Source: Rhodospirillales bacterium
Lineage (GTDB): Bacteria > Pseudomonadota > Alphaproteobacteria > Rhodospirillales > Magnetospirillaceae
Assembly (NCBI GenBank): GCA_014379805.1
Contig: JACMLB010000366.1
Span: 1 to 38,691 of the forward strand
DNA length: 38,691 nucleotides
Direction of reading: 5' to 3'
Shown here: one piece after another, positions 2-9,787 of the stretch
Numbering within the stretch: the first letter of the stretch is position 1
Layout of the letters: every line of letters begins with the position of its first letter
Translations under genes and position numbers: made by a program
The notes under the pieces: generated by a model
Databases searched by the model: none
What the model was told of the DNA's origin: nothing
What the model saw: only the letters and a program-made list of their open reading frames with translations

Positions 2-481
2 GGAATCAATAAGTTGGAGAGGGCGGTCCAAGATAGCCTGCACACCATTGTTGGCGACCGGGTCGTCAAAGAGGAAAGCGGCTTTGCCGTCATCTCGGAG
101 GCCGTCGGCGATTTGACGGACAATTTGCAGCACTTGATCATTCACCAACGAGATACCCTGACCAAGGTTCAGCAGGACAACGAGAGGATGGCGGCGCCGA
201 TTATGCAAATGATCGGCTCGATTCAGTTCCAGGATGTTGTCAAGCGCCGGTTGCAAGGCTTGGTCCAAGCTTTCGACCACATGGCCAATTCCATCGAGGA
301 GGTCGTGGGGCAGGTCTCCCAGCGCCCCGACATTTCGCTGGAAGAGATGAATGCCATTATCCGGGGCAACCTGGATCGCATGGTTAATGTCGGCATCGAG
401 GACCTGAAGGCCGGGCGATTCGCCGATGTTGGCCAAAAAGACGGTTCGCCGCCGCAGGGCGCGGCCATTGAATTGTTCTGA
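2..481 (+). CDS. Methyl-accepting chemotaxis-like protein, C-terminal part (5' end outside the window)
   Basis: Frame is open to the window edge (GINKLERAVQDSL...). Contains 'MIGSIQFQDVVKRRLQ', typical of MCP-like/chemotaxis signalling proteins. Confidence 0.5.
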   Translation, partial: GINKLERAVQDSLHTIVGDRVVKEESGFAVISEAVGDLTDNLQHLIIHQRDTLTKVQQDNERMAAPIMQMIGSIQFQDVVKRRLQGLVQAFDHMANSIEEVVGQVSQRPDISLEEMNAIIRGNLDRMVNVGIEDLKAGRFADVGQKDGSPPQGAAIELF

Positions 482-536
482 TGACGCCCGCAAGGATTTC
501 CTTTGGAGGGCGTAACGAAGACCAGGAGCGACCGCT

Positions 537-965
537 ATGGATGACGGGATAACGAATGCCGATACACCAGAGCGGTGGATGAACTCCCGCGAAATAGACA
601 GGCAACATCATCAAATCATGGATGCACTGAAGCGCCTTATGCAGGAAGCGTTAGGGAATTCGGCTGAAGGCATGGCAGGGCAATTTTTTAAAATTTGCGA
701 CCTGCTTTCTGATCATTTTCGAGACGAGGAGGCGTTCCTTACAGCAAGTGGATCTATTTTGCTGTCGACGCAGCAAATGGAGCACGGACTTCTCTCCCGC
801 ATGCTGTCGAACATGCGCGGGTTAATGGAGTCATCAGAACAGCTACAGTGGCGTGCGACTGTCATCGACGAGGCTATCGATGCGTTGGCGATCCACTTTG
901 CCAAAGAGGAGGGGATCTTTGACCCACTGATTGGCCGTCAGAGAGTAAAGAATTGTGCAACCTGA
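537..965 (+). CDS. Hemerythrin-domain protein (bacteriohemerythrin-like)
   Basis: Ordered His/carboxylate motifs: DRQHHQI, DHFRDEE, EHGLL, IHFAKEEGIFD. Confidence 0.75.
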   Translation: MDDGITNADTPERWMNSREIDRQHHQIMDALKRLMQEALGNSAEGMAGQFFKICDLLSDHFRDEEAFLTASGSILLSTQQMEHGLLSRMLSNMRGLMESSEQLQWRATVIDEAIDALAIHFAKEEGIFDPLIGRQRVKNCAT

Positions 966-1084
966 CTTGGTGCTACCACCCACCAAAACCATCACCGTCG
1001 GGCTGGACGGGCAATTTGCGGATAGCAGCCAAGTCTTGTGAGGCCATTGGACTTGTCGTCGACGGCCAAGGGTAGGTTTTAAGC

Positions 1085-1345
1085 CAGATCGTGTCCTATT
1101 AATTGGTGTAATAGCGAGGTCGCCGTTTGATCTCCGACAGGCTTAGCCGGGATAGTCAAGCTGCCGCGACGAGCGGCGGGCTGGTCAGGGATCATCGCTC
1201 AAGGGGGCCACGGATTCCAGGGTCATTTAGCGGGATCGCGGGACTGCCCATTCGTCGTTCTGCTCCAGCAAGATGGCGCATCAGGCGGGTGATGGAGGCC
1301 TCGTTGAGGAAGATGCCGACCACTTGGAAATCGGTGTGCAATTCT
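1085..1345 (-). pseudogene. IS256 (mutator)-family transposase 3' remnant plus terminal sequence
   Basis: Minus strand reads '...GIFLNEASITRL' then, after a frameshift, 'ILLEQNDEWAVPRSR*MTLESVAPLSDDP', the C-terminal signature of IS256-family transposases with an in-frame TAA. Further on, 'ttacaccaattaataggacacgatc' (minus strand, about 1087-1111) resembles an IS end. Confidence 0.7.
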
Positions 1346-1392
1346 GACACCCTATCCGGGGCGATCGGCGTCGAATTTTACCCCCCTCCCGC
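1330..1392 (-). repeat. Two imperfect ~22-bp direct repeats resembling IS21-family subterminal repeats
   Basis: Minus strand: GGGGGTAAAATTCGACGCCGAT and GGGTGTCAGAATTGCACACCGAT in tandem between the IS3 and IS256 debris. Confidence 0.4.
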
Positions 1393-1748: not shown

Positions 1749-2903
1749 TCACGCCCAAGCGCAACCTGACGGCGAGTTGTCGGACTGACCATAAGGCCGG
1801 GCGTCAGCCCGGTGCATAATGGCGGCTAGGTCGACGGTTAGGCGGTCGAGTTGGTCGGCCCGTACCAAGCATTCCATATAGCTGTGCGAATGAAAGCCGT
1901 GCGTGCCAGTTGGGAGCTTGAATAGGCTGGGACCCGCAGCCAAGCGCTTGTTGCAGTAAATGCGGGCGCCCCGCTTCGCAGCGTCTAAGTTGCCGTATTT
2001 GGCATCGGGCCGCGCCGGGTCGGGCTCGCGTGCACGGAATTTGACTACGTAATCGAAATTGATCGCTTCACCGCCATCGACGTCAATTTGAACACTTGCG
2101 TATCCATCGGCGCCGCGATGTTCTGGATAAAAATATTCGTAATATACCTGTGGTTCTTCGCACGGGTCTCCGTTTACGATGACCTCGAAATCAGCGGGAT
2201 CGATCCCGAAAAAACTCTCAGAAATAATGGAGCGGACCGTATCTACGCTGTACTTAACAGCATCGCATTTCAGTCGGCTCAGAACGACGCTAGTTCCCAT
2301 CTCTTCGGAAGGTTGTCCTTCTTCGTAGGAAGCGGGAATTAGCACCGCAGCTAAATTTTGGGCGTTCTTGAGGTCGTTGTAATCCAATTTGAACACAGTC
2401 GCGAACGTTTCGCCTGCGCGCTTGGTGCGAATGGTAACCAATTCAGCCGCACCGAACCCGGCCAGTTTGCCAAGGCCCTTGCGGCCCATTACGTAGCGCC
2501 GGCCTGATTCGCTTTTCATATTGGTTTCGCTGCCGGTGTTGTCCGCTCGCCGCTTCCTGTTGATTGGCAAGAACCGGTCTTCCACCTCCCTCGGAGTCAT
2601 TCCGTGACCATCGTCGGTTATCACGATCTGGAAATCGTCTGGTAGTGGTTCCAGCAGGACACGAAAAGGGGCCTTCTCGCCATCAGCAACAGCTTTTTTT
2701 GCAGCCTCGCGCATTGCAGCGCGGGCAGAGGCGATGCCTTCTGGGATTGATATGCCGACCGTCCTGGCATCCGAATCGTAGGCATTCGCGACAAACTCCA
2801 CCAAGCATTTGCCGATGGAGGTGTACATGTTGATGCCGAGGGCCTCGAGCATGCCGCCCTGAATTGCCATCGGAAAGTTGTCTGGTCTGTAATCGGTCGA
2901 CAT
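1749..2903 (-). CDS. GHKL (Hsp90-like) ATPase domain protein, apparently truncated at the C-terminus
   Basis: N-box 'LVEFVANAYDSDA', G1 'ITDDGHGM', G2 'GRKGLGKLAGFGA'. Start chosen at ATG 2903 (MSTDYRPDNF). The last ~24 aa (AAIMHRADARPYGQSDNSPSGCAWA) run into unrelated GC-rich sequence. Confidence 0.7.
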   Translation of the reverse strand: MSTDYRPDNFPMAIQGGMLEALGINMYTSIGKCLVEFVANAYDSDARTVGISIPEGIASARAAMREAAKKAVADGEKAPFRVLLEPLPDDFQIVITDDGHGMTPREVEDRFLPINRKRRADNTGSETNMKSESGRRYVMGRKGLGKLAGFGAAELVTIRTKRAGETFATVFKLDYNDLKNAQNLAAVLIPASYEEGQPSEEMGTSVVLSRLKCDAVKYSVDTVRSIISESFFGIDPADFEVIVNGDPCEEPQVYYEYFYPEHRGADGYASVQIDVDGGEAINFDYVVKFRAREPDPARPDAKYGNLDAAKRGARIYCNKRLAAGPSLFKLPTGTHGFHSHSYMECLVRADQLDRLTVDLAAIMHRADARPYGQSDNSPSGCAWA

Positions 2904-2999
2904 AATGGCGCCACTTTCCTTTTGGGAGTGCTCGCAACCATACTTCCGATCTGGCGTGGTGTGCAACCGAGGGGATTGCCCGCACCGGCGCGAGGGCCT

Positions 3000-3255
3000 G
3001 TTTGGGAAGTTTTCCCCCAACGAATGTTTATGGAAACTAACTGCGGGCTCTACCCCTTCAAATCCACCAGGTTAACTGGTGGTGGCAGAGGTAATCTCCC
3101 GACCGTAAGAGGCTCCATTCCCGGCCAACTAGAGCGATGAATTTACCGGGCTTGTCCACGTGGTGCGGTAAGAGTTGGCCGCATATGCAGGTGCAAAGCT
3201 TCTTAGACACACCTATCGCGGCCAACTACCTTGGAAACCGACACCCTTGTCGGGT
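3000..3255. other. Structured, ORF-poor intergenic region (candidate ncRNA or element remnant)
   Basis: Hairpins CCACCAG-gttaa-CTGGTGG (3064-3082), GTTGGCCGC...GCGGCCAAC (3174-3226, inner AGGTG/CACCT, outer GGTA/TACC) and CCGACA-ccct-TGTCGG (3238-3253). Confidence 0.45.
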
Positions 3256-3290: not shown

Positions 3291-5177
3291 TTAGGACATG
3301 GCTATGCGGTCGCGGATCAGGCGTTCAAGCAGCATGATGTCCTGTTCCACCTTTTCCGGCGACCCGTTGCGGAAGTCTTCCTCCGGTTGATGCTCGGTCA
3401 GTTCCACCGTCCGGGGCGTGCCGTCGCCCCAGACGGCCAGGATGGCCGGCAGATGCTCGTGACGGAATTGCATGTGGGCGTGCATGGCGAAATGCGCCCG
3501 TTGTTCCTTTGTGGTCTCAGGCCTTGGGGTCTCGCTTGTGCCCATGCTTGCCGCGTGGCGGCGCATGATGTTGCGGCTGTATATGGCGGCTTTCAAAAAG
3601 GCCCCCGTGCCGGGGTCGAGCCGCTCGCCCAATGTGCCGATCTGGCAGCGTTGCATTTGGGCCTGGACGCCTTCCCCGGCGTGTTCCGCCCCGAGTGAGA
3701 AGAAAGGAGTGGCGTCGAGGCCCGCATAACAGGTGATGATGTCGATCCCGCCAGGATGCCGGTCCAAATACGGGTTGAGGTCGTAGACCCGGCCATGGAT
3801 GACATGCAGGGGCCGGTCGGACAGGCTGCTTGCGGCCACCTCCAGTTCGGTGAAGGCGGGCATGTCCTCGGGCTCTTCCGGCAGGGGGCGTGTTTCCGTC
3901 ACCGGGGGCGTCAGTCTTAGGTCATGGCGTTCCTGGCGTGCGGCATTCAGACGGGTGGCAACCTGGACCCAGGTGTGTTCATGGGTGAAACGTTCGTCGC
4001 CGCTGGTGGATTGATTGCGGCCGACCATGGTGGCCACCGCCAAGTAATTGAGGACCTTGGAAACGTGCCGGCCAAAATACCCGCTTTCGCCCGCATAGGC
4101 TTCCACCAGGGCGTCGAATGCGCGAACCGTGTTGTCGAAGCCGGGCATATGGCGCCGTTCGCTGAGCCAGGAGCGGAAGTTCAGCGCTCCGACCGTGCGG
4201 TTGAATTCCAGCAGATGGGGCGGCAGCAGCCCTGGTCCGTGCTCCTTGAGATATTTGCCGTAATAGGAGTGATAACTGGTGCGTCCCAGCAACTCGTCCA
4301 GGGTCAGGAAGACCGGAACGAAGGACCCGCTGGTGCCGCCCTGCCGCCAGGGATGCGGGAAGACCGCCAGGATGGCGACGGTCTTGGCCCATAACAAAGG
4401 ATCGCACCAGGTCGCGCTGCCCACGCGCGGGTTGATCTTGCGGAAGGTGGCGGTGCATTTCGTCACGACGTCCGTGATGGCGCCCAGGATTTCGGCTATG
4501 GGCTGCGGCTGCGGGTCCGGCGCAGTCATGAGTTCCTCCAGGCGGCACACCGCCTCGATCAGCGGCGCGCAATGGGCCATCATTTCCACGAAGGCCATGT
4601 AAAACACCCGTTCCGCTGAATTGCCGAAGGTGGGCACAAGCGGGGCCAGGGTTTCAATGGTCAATGCCGATATGGGGTAAGTCGCCGGATGCGGCCCGCC
4701 CTGAAGCTGGAAATTGTTCAGGAACAGGTCATAGCCGCTTTGATACGGCTCATGGCCGCGGCCCAGCCGCTGTGTCACTTGTTGCCACGGAATGCGGATG
4801 GCGTCAGGCAGTTCCGGGTCGATGGAGCACATGCGCAGGGCGAAGAACCGTTCGGGCTCGCCGCGCCACCAGCTCAAGGCGAACTGGCTGAGGATGGTGG
4901 CGGCGCGCGCCAGACAGTCATCCGGCAGCGCCGCCGGATCCGAGGCGTCGAGCAGCGGCAAGGTGGCCAGTGCCGTGCGTGCAGCTGCGGCGGAATTCAG
5001 CGCTGGTAACCGTGCCGCCAGAGCATCCCAAGGCCGGAACGGGCCGGGAAGGGTTTGCTTCGGCAGTGTTCTTGGGAGGAAACCGTAATCCAGCGACAAC
5101 GCGCCATCGAGAATCGCCGAATTGTTCTGCACGTCGAGAACAAATTGCCGCAAGTGCCCGATTCGCGATGTCATCAT
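3291..5177 (-). CDS. IDO/PrnB-superfamily heme dioxygenase-like protein fused to a cytochrome b5 domain
   Basis: IDO-like 'GGTSGSFVPVFLTLDELLGR', 'LLPPHLLEFNRTVG', 'GRHVSKVLNYL', 'GRNQSTSGD'; cyt b5 'LHVIHGRVYDLNPYLDRHPGGIDIITCYAGLDATPFFSLGAEHAGEG...CQIGTL'. Confidence 0.75.
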   Translation of the reverse strand: MMTSRIGHLRQFVLDVQNNSAILDGALSLDYGFLPRTLPKQTLPGPFRPWDALAARLPALNSAAAARTALATLPLLDASDPAALPDDCLARAATILSQFALSWWRGEPERFFALRMCSIDPELPDAIRIPWQQVTQRLGRGHEPYQSGYDLFLNNFQLQGGPHPATYPISALTIETLAPLVPTFGNSAERVFYMAFVEMMAHCAPLIEAVCRLEELMTAPDPQPQPIAEILGAITDVVTKCTATFRKINPRVGSATWCDPLLWAKTVAILAVFPHPWRQGGTSGSFVPVFLTLDELLGRTSYHSYYGKYLKEHGPGLLPPHLLEFNRTVGALNFRSWLSERRHMPGFDNTVRAFDALVEAYAGESGYFGRHVSKVLNYLAVATMVGRNQSTSGDERFTHEHTWVQVATRLNAARQERHDLRLTPPVTETRPLPEEPEDMPAFTELEVAASSLSDRPLHVIHGRVYDLNPYLDRHPGGIDIITCYAGLDATPFFSLGAEHAGEGVQAQMQRCQIGTLGERLDPGTGAFLKAAIYSRNIMRRHAASMGTSETPRPETTKEQRAHFAMHAHMQFRHEHLPAILAVWGDGTPRTVELTEHQPEEDFRNGSPEKVEQDIMLLERLIRDRIAMS

Positions 5178-5203: not shown

Positions 5204-5231
5204 GGTTAAATCATTGTTAGATGATTTAACC
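5204..5231. promoter_or_regulatory. 28-bp perfect inverted repeat (candidate operator)
   Basis: GGTTAAATCAT-tgttag-ATGATTTAACC, 26 bp upstream of the start of the IDO-cyt b5 gene. Confidence 0.6.
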
Positions 5232-5289: not shown

Positions 5290-6356
<1,067 letters not shown>

Positions 6357-6360
<4 letters not shown>

Positions 6361-6767
6361 TTCTTGTACAGCTCCTCGGGGCTGACGCGCACTTTTTCCA
6401 CCTCGACCAGACCCTCGGGGCGGGCGGCGGTGTAGAAGCAGGTGCGGCGGCCCGTGTGGCAGGCAACGCCGTCCTGATCCACCTTCAGCAGGATGGTGTC
6501 GCCGTCGCAATCGATCAGCAACTCCTTCAGCCGTTGCTGCTGGCCCGAAGTCTCACCCTTGCGCCACAAACCCTGGCGCGAGCGCGACCAATAGCAGACC
6601 CGGCCCGTCGCCAGGGTCTCGGCCACGGACTCGCGGTTCATCCAGGCCATCATCAGCACCTCGCCGGTGTCGAATTGCTGGGCGATGGCGGGAACCAGGC
6701 CGTCCTCGTTGAATTTCAGGGCGGCGAGGGCGGCGATGGGATCGGACATAATTTGCTCCAGCGTCAA
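6357..6767 (-). CDS. hisI: Phosphoribosyl-AMP cyclohydrolase
   Basis: '[27 protein letters not shown]' with the three conserved Cys. 4-bp overlap with the COG0523 gene. Start may be 6749. Confidence 0.9.
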
Positions 6768-6786
6768 AATGCACGCCCGGTATAAA

Positions 6787-7716
6787 TTATTTCGCTGCCA
6801 GACACGATGCCAACCCGTCGGCCAGTCGGGTCATCAGGGTGAAATATTGCTCGGGGCCGGGCGGGATGTCGGCACCTTGGGGGTCCAGCACGCCCACGCG
6901 GGCACCGGCGGATTCGGCCAGGGTTTGCACCACCGGGGCGGGGAATTGCGGTTCGCGGAAGACGCAAGCAGCGCCCGATGCTTTCAAACGGTCGCGCAAG
7001 GCGGCAAGGCGCTTGGCCGAGGGCGGACGGTCGGGGTCGACGGTGATGGAACCGGCGCTGGTCAGGCCGTAGCGCTTTTCCACATATTGATAGGCGTCGT
7101 GGAACACCACGAAGGGCTTGCCCGCCACCGGGGCCAGCTTGGCTTTCATCTGGCCGTCCAGCGCTTCCAGCCGGGCCACCGTGGCGGTGGCGTTGGCGTG
7201 GTAGGTGTCGGCATTCGCGGGGTCGAGTTCAGCCAGACGATCGGCGACTGCGGTTACCAGCAGGCGGGCATTGGCCGGGTCCAGCCACAGATGGCCGTCC
7301 GCAGCAGCGTGGTTGTGCCCGTGGTTGTGGCCCTGTTCGCCATGTTCCGGCTCCCACACGCCGCCCTTGCGGGGCAGTAGGGTGGCGGCGCCGGGCAGAT
7401 CGGCCAGGGCGATGATCTCAGCCTTGGTTCCCTTCAGGGGTTTCGCCAGGAAGGTCTCATAGGCTTCGTCAACCAGCACCACCATGCGGGCGGCTTGCAG
7501 GGCGCGGGCGTCCGACGGCTTTAGCGCATAGGTATGTTCCGACTGGGCGCCGCTCACCATAAGGCCGGGCTCGCCCACGCCCTTCATGACGGATGCGACA
7601 AGGGAATGCAGCGGCTGGATGGATGCCATCACCTTGGGCACCTCGGCCTGGGCCGGTGCCGCAAGGATGGTCAGGGCCAGCGCCCAACTCTTCCACATGA
7701 AATGGCTCCGTGTCAT
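6787..7716 (-). CDS. znuA: Zinc ABC transporter substrate-binding protein
   Basis: Signal peptide, '[14 protein letters not shown]', His-rich loop '[13 protein letters not shown]', '[11 protein letters not shown]', '[14 protein letters not shown]'. Confidence 0.92.
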
Positions 7717-7732
7717 GATGCGCTGATAGTTG

Positions 7733-7753
7733 GAATGTTATAATATAACGAAC
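7733..7753. promoter_or_regulatory. Zur box between divergent znuA and zur
   Basis: Palindrome core GTTATAATATAAC (7737-7749) in the intergenic region of the divergent zinc-uptake genes. Confidence 0.75.
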
Positions 7754-7765
7754 AGGCCGCTGCCA

Positions 7766-8248
7766 ATGAGTTTTCCCGTCCCCGATCACGATCACGGCAC
7801 TTGTGTGGCCCACGCGCTGGAAGCCGCCGAGGCCGAGTGCAAGCGCCGTGGCGCAAGGCTGACCGACGTGCGCCGCCGGGTGCTGGAACTGGTGTGGCAA
7901 AGCCATGCCCCGGTGGGCGCCTATGCCCTGCTGGAAGCCTTGGGTCGCGAGGGCTTTTGCGCAGCACCGCCTACGGTTTACCGGGCGCTGGACTTCCTGT
8001 TGGCCCACGGGCTGATCCACCGCATTGAGCGCCTGAACGCCTTCATGGGTTGCTCGCGCCCCGGAATCCCTCATGCGGGGCAATTCCTGTTGTGCACCGG
8101 CTGCGGCACCGCCGCCGAGTTGAACGATTCCGCCATCGATTCCGCCATGACCGCCGCTGCGTCGCGTCTGGGCTTCGCCCTGACCGGCCAGACGGTCGAG
8201 GCCGACGGCCTGTGCTCTGCCTGCCGAGCGAAGGAACCCGTGTCGTGA
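7766..8248 (+). CDS. zur: Fur-family zinc uptake regulator
   Basis: 'LTDVRRRVLELVWQSHAPVGAYALLEAL', 'PPTVYRALDFLLAHGLIHRIE', 'CTGCGTA...CSACR' metal-site cysteines. Start at ATG 7766. Confidence 0.9.
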   Translation: MSFPVPDHDHGTCVAHALEAAEAECKRRGARLTDVRRRVLELVWQSHAPVGAYALLEALGREGFCAAPPTVYRALDFLLAHGLIHRIERLNAFMGCSRPGIPHAGQFLLCTGCGTAAELNDSAIDSAMTAAASRLGFALTGQTVEADGLCSACRAKEPVS

Positions 8249-9018
8249 GTACATTGCTGGCGGTTGACCGCGTGTCCCTGACTTTGTCGGGCCACCCGGT
8301 GCTGAGCGACGTCTCGCTGGCGGTGGAGACGGGCCGCATCGTCACCATCGTCGGCCCCAACGGCGCGGGCAAATCCACCTTGGTCAAGGTGGCCCTTGGC
8401 CTGATGTCCCCCGATGCCGGTACCGTGCGCCGCACCGCCGGCTTGCGGGTGGGCTATGTGCCGCAACGCCTGACGGTGGAACCGGCCCTGCCGCTGTCCG
8501 TGCGTCGCTTCCTTGCCATGGCGGCGCCCAAAGCCGATCCGGCGGATATGAATAATGCTTTGGTGCGGGTGGGCGCGGGGCATGTCCTGGCCCAGCAGGT
8601 GCCCGAACTGTCGGGGGGCGAGCTGCAACGGGTCATGCTGGCGCGGGCCTTGTTGCGCAAGCCCCATCTGCTGGTGCTGGACGAACCGGTGGGCGGCGTG
8701 GACATGGCCGGGCAGGCGGAAATTTATGATCTGATCGCTGCCCTGGCTCATGCCGATGGCAGTGGCGTGTTGATGGTCAGCCACGATCTGCACGTGGTCA
8801 TGGCCGCCACCGACGAAGTGGTGTGCCTCAACCGCCATGTCTGCTGCGCCGGTCACCCCGAGGCGGTCAGCCGCCACCCGGAATATCTGGCCCTGTTCGG
8901 CCCCAAAGTGGCAGCCAGCCTAGCGGTCTACACCCATGTGCACGACCACGCCCATCTGCCCGATGGCGGCACGGTGGAACTTCCTCATACGCATGGACCG
9001 AACTGCCGCCATGGATGA
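8245..9018 (+). CDS. znuC: Zinc ABC transporter ATP-binding protein
   Basis: Walker A 'GPNGAGKST', 'LSGGELQRVMLARALL', 'LLVLDEP', His-rich C-terminus. GTG start overlaps the zur stop. Confidence 0.92.
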   Translation: MSTLLAVDRVSLTLSGHPVLSDVSLAVETGRIVTIVGPNGAGKSTLVKVALGLMSPDAGTVRRTAGLRVGYVPQRLTVEPALPLSVRRFLAMAAPKADPADMNNALVRVGAGHVLAQQVPELSGGELQRVMLARALLRKPHLLVLDEPVGGVDMAGQAEIYDLIAALAHADGSGVLMVSHDLHVVMAATDEVVCLNRHVCCAGHPEAVSRHPEYLALFGPKVAASLAVYTHVHDHAHLPDGGTVELPHTHGPNCRHG

Positions 9019-9787
9019 ATTTCTCGCCCGCGCTTTAGCCGGCGGCTTAGGCCTTGCCTTAGTGGCTGGTCCGTTCGGCTGCTTCGTGGTGTGGCGCCGC
9101 ATGGCTTATTTCGGCGACACCTTGGCCCATGCCGCGCTGCTGGGCGTGGTGCTGGGTGTGGCGCTGGATATGGACTTCACCATCGGCATCGCCTTGCTGT
9201 CCTTGGCGGTGGCGCTGTTGCTGGGGCTAATGCAGCGCCAGCGGCAATTGGCCTCGGACACCATGTTGGGCATCATCTCCCACGGCGCGTTGGCGACCGG
9301 ATTGGTGGCGCTGGCGCTGATGCAGGATGCGCGGGTCAACCTTATGGGCTGGCTGCTGGGCGACATTCTTGCCATCGGGTGGACCGACGTGGCGGTGCTG
9401 TGGGGCGGCGGTGTCGTGCTGCTGGCGGCGCTGGCTGTTGTCTGGCCGACCTTGGTCGCCATGATCGTGGATGAGGATCTGGCGGCGGTAGAGGGCCACG
9501 CCGTCGCCCGCGCCCGCATGGTGCTGATGGTGCTGGTGGCCCTGGTGGTCGCCGCCGCCATGAAGGTGGTCGGCATCCTGCTGGTGACCGCCCTGCTGGT
9601 CATCCCCGCCGCCACCGCCCGCAAATTCTCCCGCACGCCCGAGCACATGGCGGTGCTTGCCAGTGTGATCGGCGCGCTGGCTGTGGCTTTGGGCTTGGCC
9701 GGGTCGTGGCGCTTCGATACCCCGTCCGGCCCGTCCGTGGTGGTGGCGGCGGTGGCGCTGTTCGTGTTGTCGCAGGCGAGGCGCTAG
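9011..9787 (+). CDS. znuB: Zinc ABC transporter permease
   Basis: ABC-3 family membrane protein: 'RRMAYFGDTLAHAALLGVVLG', multiple TM segments. Start at 9011 overlaps znuC. Confidence 0.92.
   Translation: MDEFLARALAGGLGLALVAGPFGCFVVWRRMAYFGDTLAHAALLGVVLGVALDMDFTIGIALLSLAVALLLGLMQRQRQLASDTMLGIISHGALATGLVALALMQDARVNLMGWLLGDILAIGWTDVAVLWGGGVVLLAALAVVWPTLVAMIVDEDLAAVEGHAVARARMVLMVLVALVVAAAMKVVGILLVTALLVIPAATARKFSRTPEHMAVLASVIGALAVALGLAGSWRFDTPSGPSVVVAAVALFVLSQARR

Follow-up and report, generated by a model that had tools for sequence, protein, structure and literature searches.

The analysed window is a 38,691-nt stretch of a Rhodospirillales contig, and its minus strand carries, at 3291–5177, a single unbroken open reading frame for a 628-aa protein made of an IDO-like heme domain, a cytochrome b5 domain and a C-terminal domain. 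Stop codons are present on the plus strand opposite. The sequence GGAGGG (5183–5178) immediately abuts the first ATG, and the second ATG (5174) may therefore be the true start. The IDO-like domain occupies residues ~27–415 (3933–5099, minus strand; PF01231 spans 28–253, 4419–5096), the cytochrome b5 domain residues ~442–516 (3630–3854, minus strand), and the last ~110 aa (3294–3620, minus strand) form a domain with the motif HAHMQFRHEHLPAI, which is also kept as HAHWQFLHEHLPAI in a decayed copy from the same genus. A Pfam search up to E=10 returned IDO and Cyt-b5 only, no NCBIfam model matched the protein, and its C-terminal ~110 aa had no match in Pfam or PDB. The GC3 of the gene (0.77) was similar to that of neighbouring genes. 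An artefactual fusion of two genes was ruled out, since the frame is continuous and the combination of IDO-like and b5 domains is seen again in independent genomes. We thus confirmed the original prediction of an IDO-type heme domain joined to cytochrome b5 in one 628-aa chain, PF01231 and PF00173 both scoring above their cut-offs.

Between the start codon and the adjacent cobW lies a perfect 11-bp inverted repeat, GGTTAAATCAT-N6-ATGATTTAACC (6-bp spacer; 5204–5231), a candidate operator or 5′-UTR hairpin. Its half-site had no other occurrence in the window genome; the window contains six perfect repeats of the same size (four overlapping), compared with 0–2 in simulated sequence. In the nearest sibling, whose cobW is 94% identical, homology ends just past the cobW stop codon and before the inverted repeat, which indicates that the fusion gene is absent from that site. 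The genes at 5290–9787 look like a zinc-starvation block, in which cobW (COG0523), hisI and znuA stand divergently to a Fur/Zur-like gene, znuC and znuB. As the fusion gene follows cobW-hisI-znuA, Zur control was considered, and no evidence for it was found. On the other side, at 1749–3020 of the minus strand, there is an ORF of lower GC (0.56) for a 423-aa GHKL-type ATPase. It resembles the N-terminal portions of PADLOC REase_II models as well as phrog_6203 and is probably a mobile or defence gene that has been truncated. The window neighbourhood gives no substrate clue.

The assignment to the IDO family was evaluated separately for the two halves of the heme domain. PF01231 matched residues 28–253 with 62.4 bits (E 4.5e-17; cut-off 26 bits), the best stretch covering only positions 8–215 of the 412 in the profile. 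Alignment with canonical IDOs using hhalign gave a probability of 97.5% and E 7.5e-12 for the N-terminal half, the HMM score of which was 41 bits against 6 for the best shuffle; its global alignment to IDO gave z=11.6. By these comparisons the N-terminal half is clearly IDO. For the C-terminal half, the local HMM score was not significant, being equalled by 119 of 1454 shuffles, whereas the global end-to-end alignment gave z=4.0 with none of 200 shuffles scoring as well, supporting a half that is diverged yet IDO-related. In addition, phmmer against PDB aligned IDO2 over residues 27–383 (E 0.002; 0.001 using residues 1–430 alone), and the protein was 34% identical over residues 16–395 (E 4.1e-47) to a relative from genome G1376. 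Its identity to canonical bacterial IDOs was 20–26%. The heme domain thus stands as proposed, but its extent of about 27–415 replaces the earlier length of ~470 aa. The landmarks GGTSGS, LDELLG, PPHLLEF, GRHVSKVLNYL and NQSTSGD are all present as first read; they lie, like the predicted heme ligand, in the C-terminal half, which local profiles do not match, and are backed by the global alignment, the phmmer alignment to IDO2 and the G1376 relative. AlphaFold2 models were of low confidence for both the whole protein alone (pLDDT 36.9) and residues 1–430 together with three IDOs from viral contigs (pLDDT 39.4). Foldseek ranked IDO2/IDO1 first for the low-confidence model of residues 1–430 (E 0.03, prob 0.91–0.95), which counts as weak evidence because the alignment behind the model contained IDOs.

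The cytochrome b5 domain was identified by PF00173 at residues 445–516 (52.6 bits, E 4.6e-14; cut-off 23.7), and phmmer against PDB also returned cytochrome b5 (E 8e-10). The HPGG motif and a second axial-histidine candidate, both pointed out in the original prediction, were located: His474 of HPGG (residues 474–477; 3756–3758, minus strand) is the first predicted heme ligand, and His499 (3681–3683, minus strand), 25 residues further on, the second. The His–His spacing in cytochrome b5 is 24. This domain was the sole cytochrome b5 found in the 79%-complete genome. The chain has an electron carrier and lacks an NAD(P)H reductase.

His371 (4065–4067, minus strand) is the predicted proximal heme ligand, equivalent to His346 of human IDO1. 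It falls on an invariant His column in an alignment of 14 proteins (the window protein, two fusion relatives and 11 canonical IDOs), and also on the proximal-His column of the phmmer alignment to IDO2. The segment W263-AKTV-A268 (4374–4391, minus strand) places, on what we take to be the numbering of human IDO1, W263 at the position of F226, where an aromatic residue is kept, and A268 at that of Arg231, which is lost. In the 14-protein alignment, the Arg231 column reads Ala268, Ala and Tyr in the three fusion proteins, and a short way ahead of this column an aromatic residue is retained as Trp263, Trp and Phe. A segment of ~26 residues with NPxxxxGxxYEG, present in canonical IDOs, is deleted in all three, and the GTGGT (JK) loop is likewise gone; NQSTSGD resembles GTGGT vaguely, and among the 11 canonical IDOs one (G1095) was noted as reading GTAGT. 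Arg231 of IDO holds the Trp carboxylate (PMC12921851). Since this residue and both segments are lost in all three fusion proteins, dioxygenation of free L-Trp by the window protein is unlikely. On Trp chemistry, the earlier interpretation has therefore to be revised. Neither TDO (PF03301) nor kynureninase was found in the window genome, absences that weigh little because the genome is only 79% complete.

The fusion is rare. When 297 genomes from the order and 399 from the phylum were scanned, an intact gene was found in the window genome only, and no IDO–cytochrome b5 fusion was found in the openly accessible full-text literature. Two intact relatives turned up when 369 genomes from a different class of the phylum were scanned. 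The larger, from the small and AT-rich genome G1376 (1165 aa; L060:3639–7133, minus strand), consists of an IDO-like domain (PF01231, E 2.2e-31), an FAD-NADPH reductase, a cytochrome b5 domain with HPGG (E 4.1e-19) and a tail without family match. Its reductase module, assigned to NAD_binding_1/FAD_binding_1 in Pfam, is nearest CysJ (NCBIfam E 2.2e-34; PDB 1ddg E 1.9e-23), and a flavodoxin domain was not found in it. Convergent with this gene and ~70 bp apart lies an NRPS of C-A-T-C-A-T-reductase order (L060:3–3569, plus strand); the two form a candidate biosynthetic cluster. The other relative, from G1093 (662 aa; L062:1137–3122, plus strand; also L067), has the same domain order as the window protein and a degenerate b5 with HAQSYRG in place of HPGG, so that b5 heme is not required in every member. 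Some kilobases downstream of it are a DUF692-type gene pair, MNIO-like by eye, and a trp biosynthesis operon. In the tree, the three fusion proteins grouped together, separate from the 11 canonical IDOs, with an ultrafast bootstrap of 100 and an SH-aLRT of 99. This clade was recovered in all bootstrap trees, and its branches are long.

A decayed copy occurs in a genome of the same genus (G294), and the same remnant in a Magnetospirillum MAG (L021:7822–8198). It has suffered internal deletions and changes frame: residues 6–30 and 75–111 are in one frame and 540–599 in another, and a stretch of the b5 start (455–472) is doubtfully present. The C-terminal motif HAHWQFLHEHLPAI is best preserved. 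This remnant follows folD, i.e. it lies at a different site from the window gene. Search patterns were widened by artificial alignments with chosen columns varied (A2–A4), used as search probes only; one scan of genome contigs with set A4 returned the decayed Magnetospirillum copy only, which is no proof of rarity because its two patterns are narrow. The window protein had no match on plasmids, where the best matches of the 1165-aa relative were CysJ-type reductases; the single-protein scan of viral contigs used exact 8-mers.

Other IDO-family matches came from open frames no longer than 444 codons, which could not accommodate a b5 fusion of this kind. Three IMG/VR contigs classed as viral (L023, L024 and L025) carry canonical IDO genes, which form a well-supported clade of their own and are neighboured by FAD-dependent oxidoreductase-like and saccharopine-dehydrogenase-like ORFs (by eye). 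A very divergent 392-aa IDO-like ORF of G534 (L019:1360–2538, minus strand; PF01231 E 8e-5) is abutted by a PLP enzyme (251–1360, minus strand) with weak kynureninase/SufS similarity. Two sets of candidates were rejected as relatives: L003–L007 and L008, from alphaproteobacteria, are flavin monooxygenases that end in a cytochrome b5 domain, another kind of oxygenase–b5 fusion, and the 820-aa frame of L055 is an unrelated protein.

Several functions could be considered for this protein. An ordinary tryptophan-dioxygenase IDO, carrying its own b5 reductant and feeding the kynurenine pathway, would account for the family match, the proximal His and the aromatic W263 at the F226 position. We regard it as very unlikely, given the replacement of Arg231 by Ala268, the deletion of NPxxxxGxxYEG and the loss of GTGGT throughout the fusion proteins, together with the low identity to canonical bacterial IDOs and the kynureninase not found in the genome. 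The PrnB-type enzyme that the original prediction held out as an alternative is scarcely credible. PrnB does share fold and superfamily with IDO and also rearranges a Trp derivative (PMC11791213), but Pfam up to E=10 gave no PF08933 match to the window protein, and PrnB was inactive with pre-reduced cytochrome b5 (PMC11791213).

The main rival is an O2/NO-binding carrier or sensor derived from IDO, with b5 as the reductase of its met form, comparable to the IDO-like myoglobins of abalone, which no longer act on Trp and are reversible binders of O2 (PMC4191572). The missing substrate-anchoring residues and the suitability of b5 for met-reduction agree with it. Magnetotactic bacteria also inhabit low-O2 environments. 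We nevertheless consider such a protein unlikely, because the homologue containing a reductase adjoins an NRPS, suggesting biosynthesis, and no sensor output domain is present. Somewhat harder to sustain is a rapidly decaying, non-catalytic protein encoded by a mobile gene heading for loss. The scraps and frame change in the same-genus genome, the degenerate b5 of G1093 and the closest sibling without the gene at the window site are in its favour, and a loss of function would likewise be compatible with the extreme divergence (branch length 3.1) and the decayed relative. The window copy, however, retains the full 628-aa frame, both b5 histidines, the proximal His and a GC3 like that of its neighbours, and its C-terminal motif is conserved with the remnant. 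Decay thus appears quite unlikely for this copy.

In our preferred reading, the gene probably encodes an IDO-superfamily heme oxygenase with a built-in electron donor. IDO-type enzymes require ferrous heme. Cytochrome b5 has been reported as a reductant of IDO and proposed as a physiological one (PMC4191572). The IDO-like domain would bind heme b through His371, with O2 on the distal side, and the bis-His b5, fed by an NAD(P)H reductase of the cell or, in G1376, by the reductase of the same chain, would pass electrons to the IDO-like heme, keeping or making it ferrous. It might also supply the second electron for a monooxygenation. With b5 in the same chain and an NADPH-FAD module in one relative, electron delivery to the IDO-like heme is the simplest explanation. 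The loss of the carboxylate-holding Arg and of two active-site loops makes it probable that the substrate is an aromatic compound, an indole or another one, and not free L-Trp. A carboxylate-free substrate such as an NRPS-derived product would fit the G1376 neighbourhood, where the adjacent NRPS suggests, without proof, a carboxylate-free aromatic product. The sequences show the architecture, the homology, the aligned His ligands, the lost IDO hallmarks and a homologue with a reductase, and from these we infer heme loading, electron flow, oxygenase activity and the substrate class. The self-sufficiency envisaged at the outset holds only by half for the window protein, which has the carrier and no reductase; the G1376 relative has both. 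A broader proposal, put forward tentatively, is a clade of His-ligated heme oxygenases built on the IDO fold and driven by NAD(P)H, in which electrons would run from NADPH via FAD and cytochrome b5 to the IDO heme. The system would be complete in G1376 and split in the window species, and may act, perhaps by monooxygenation, on carboxylate-free aromatics derived from peptides or NRPSs. Against the preferred reading speak the poor structure models, the diverged C-terminal half, the HPGG lost in G1093, the extreme divergence and the window protein's lack of a reductase and of biosynthetic neighbours.

Compared with known systems, the protein shares with the IDO family (PF01231; human IDO1/IDO2 and bacterial IDOs) a homologous domain with the proximal-His column, the N-terminal half and the GGxxGS and PPxH landmarks, and differs in its low identity, its lost Arg231, YEG and GTGGT elements and its fusion to b5. 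PrnB, TDO, MarE, SfmD and TyrH exemplify the same superfamily theme, a His-ligated heme oxygenase put to use in natural-product chemistry (PMC11791213), but the window protein matches neither PF08933 nor PF03301, and no fused b5 or reductase was described for them in the literature searched. Gastropod IDO-like myoglobins are related to IDO too and no longer act as Trp dioxygenases (PMC4191572), whereas the window protein is bacterial and fused to b5. An oxygenase or oxidoreductase is combined with its redox partners in one chain in self-sufficient P450s (P450 BM3 and CYP116B) and in cytochrome b5 fusions (flavocytochrome b2 and sulfite oxidase), and the G1376 protein resembles them in its CysJ/CPR-type reductase. 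Here, in contrast to the P450s, the heme is of the His-ligated IDO type and not Cys-ligated, and b5 takes the place of the FMN or Fe-S carrier.

Whether IDO is reduced by superoxide or by cytochrome b5 has been debated for decades. The natural fusions of an IDO fold with cytochrome b5, one of them with an NADPH reductase, can be taken as an evolutionary vote for b5 as the reductant. Our comparisons support the view that the fusion gives the IDO-like heme its own b5 electron carrier, a logic strengthened by the homologue that contains a reductase. The transfer of electrons to this heme could be followed within one polypeptide, with no need for ascorbate and methylene blue. Should they prove to act on new substrates, these proteins would represent a self-powered branch within the small superfamily of His-ligated heme oxygenases, a counterpart of P450 BM3 among the P450s.
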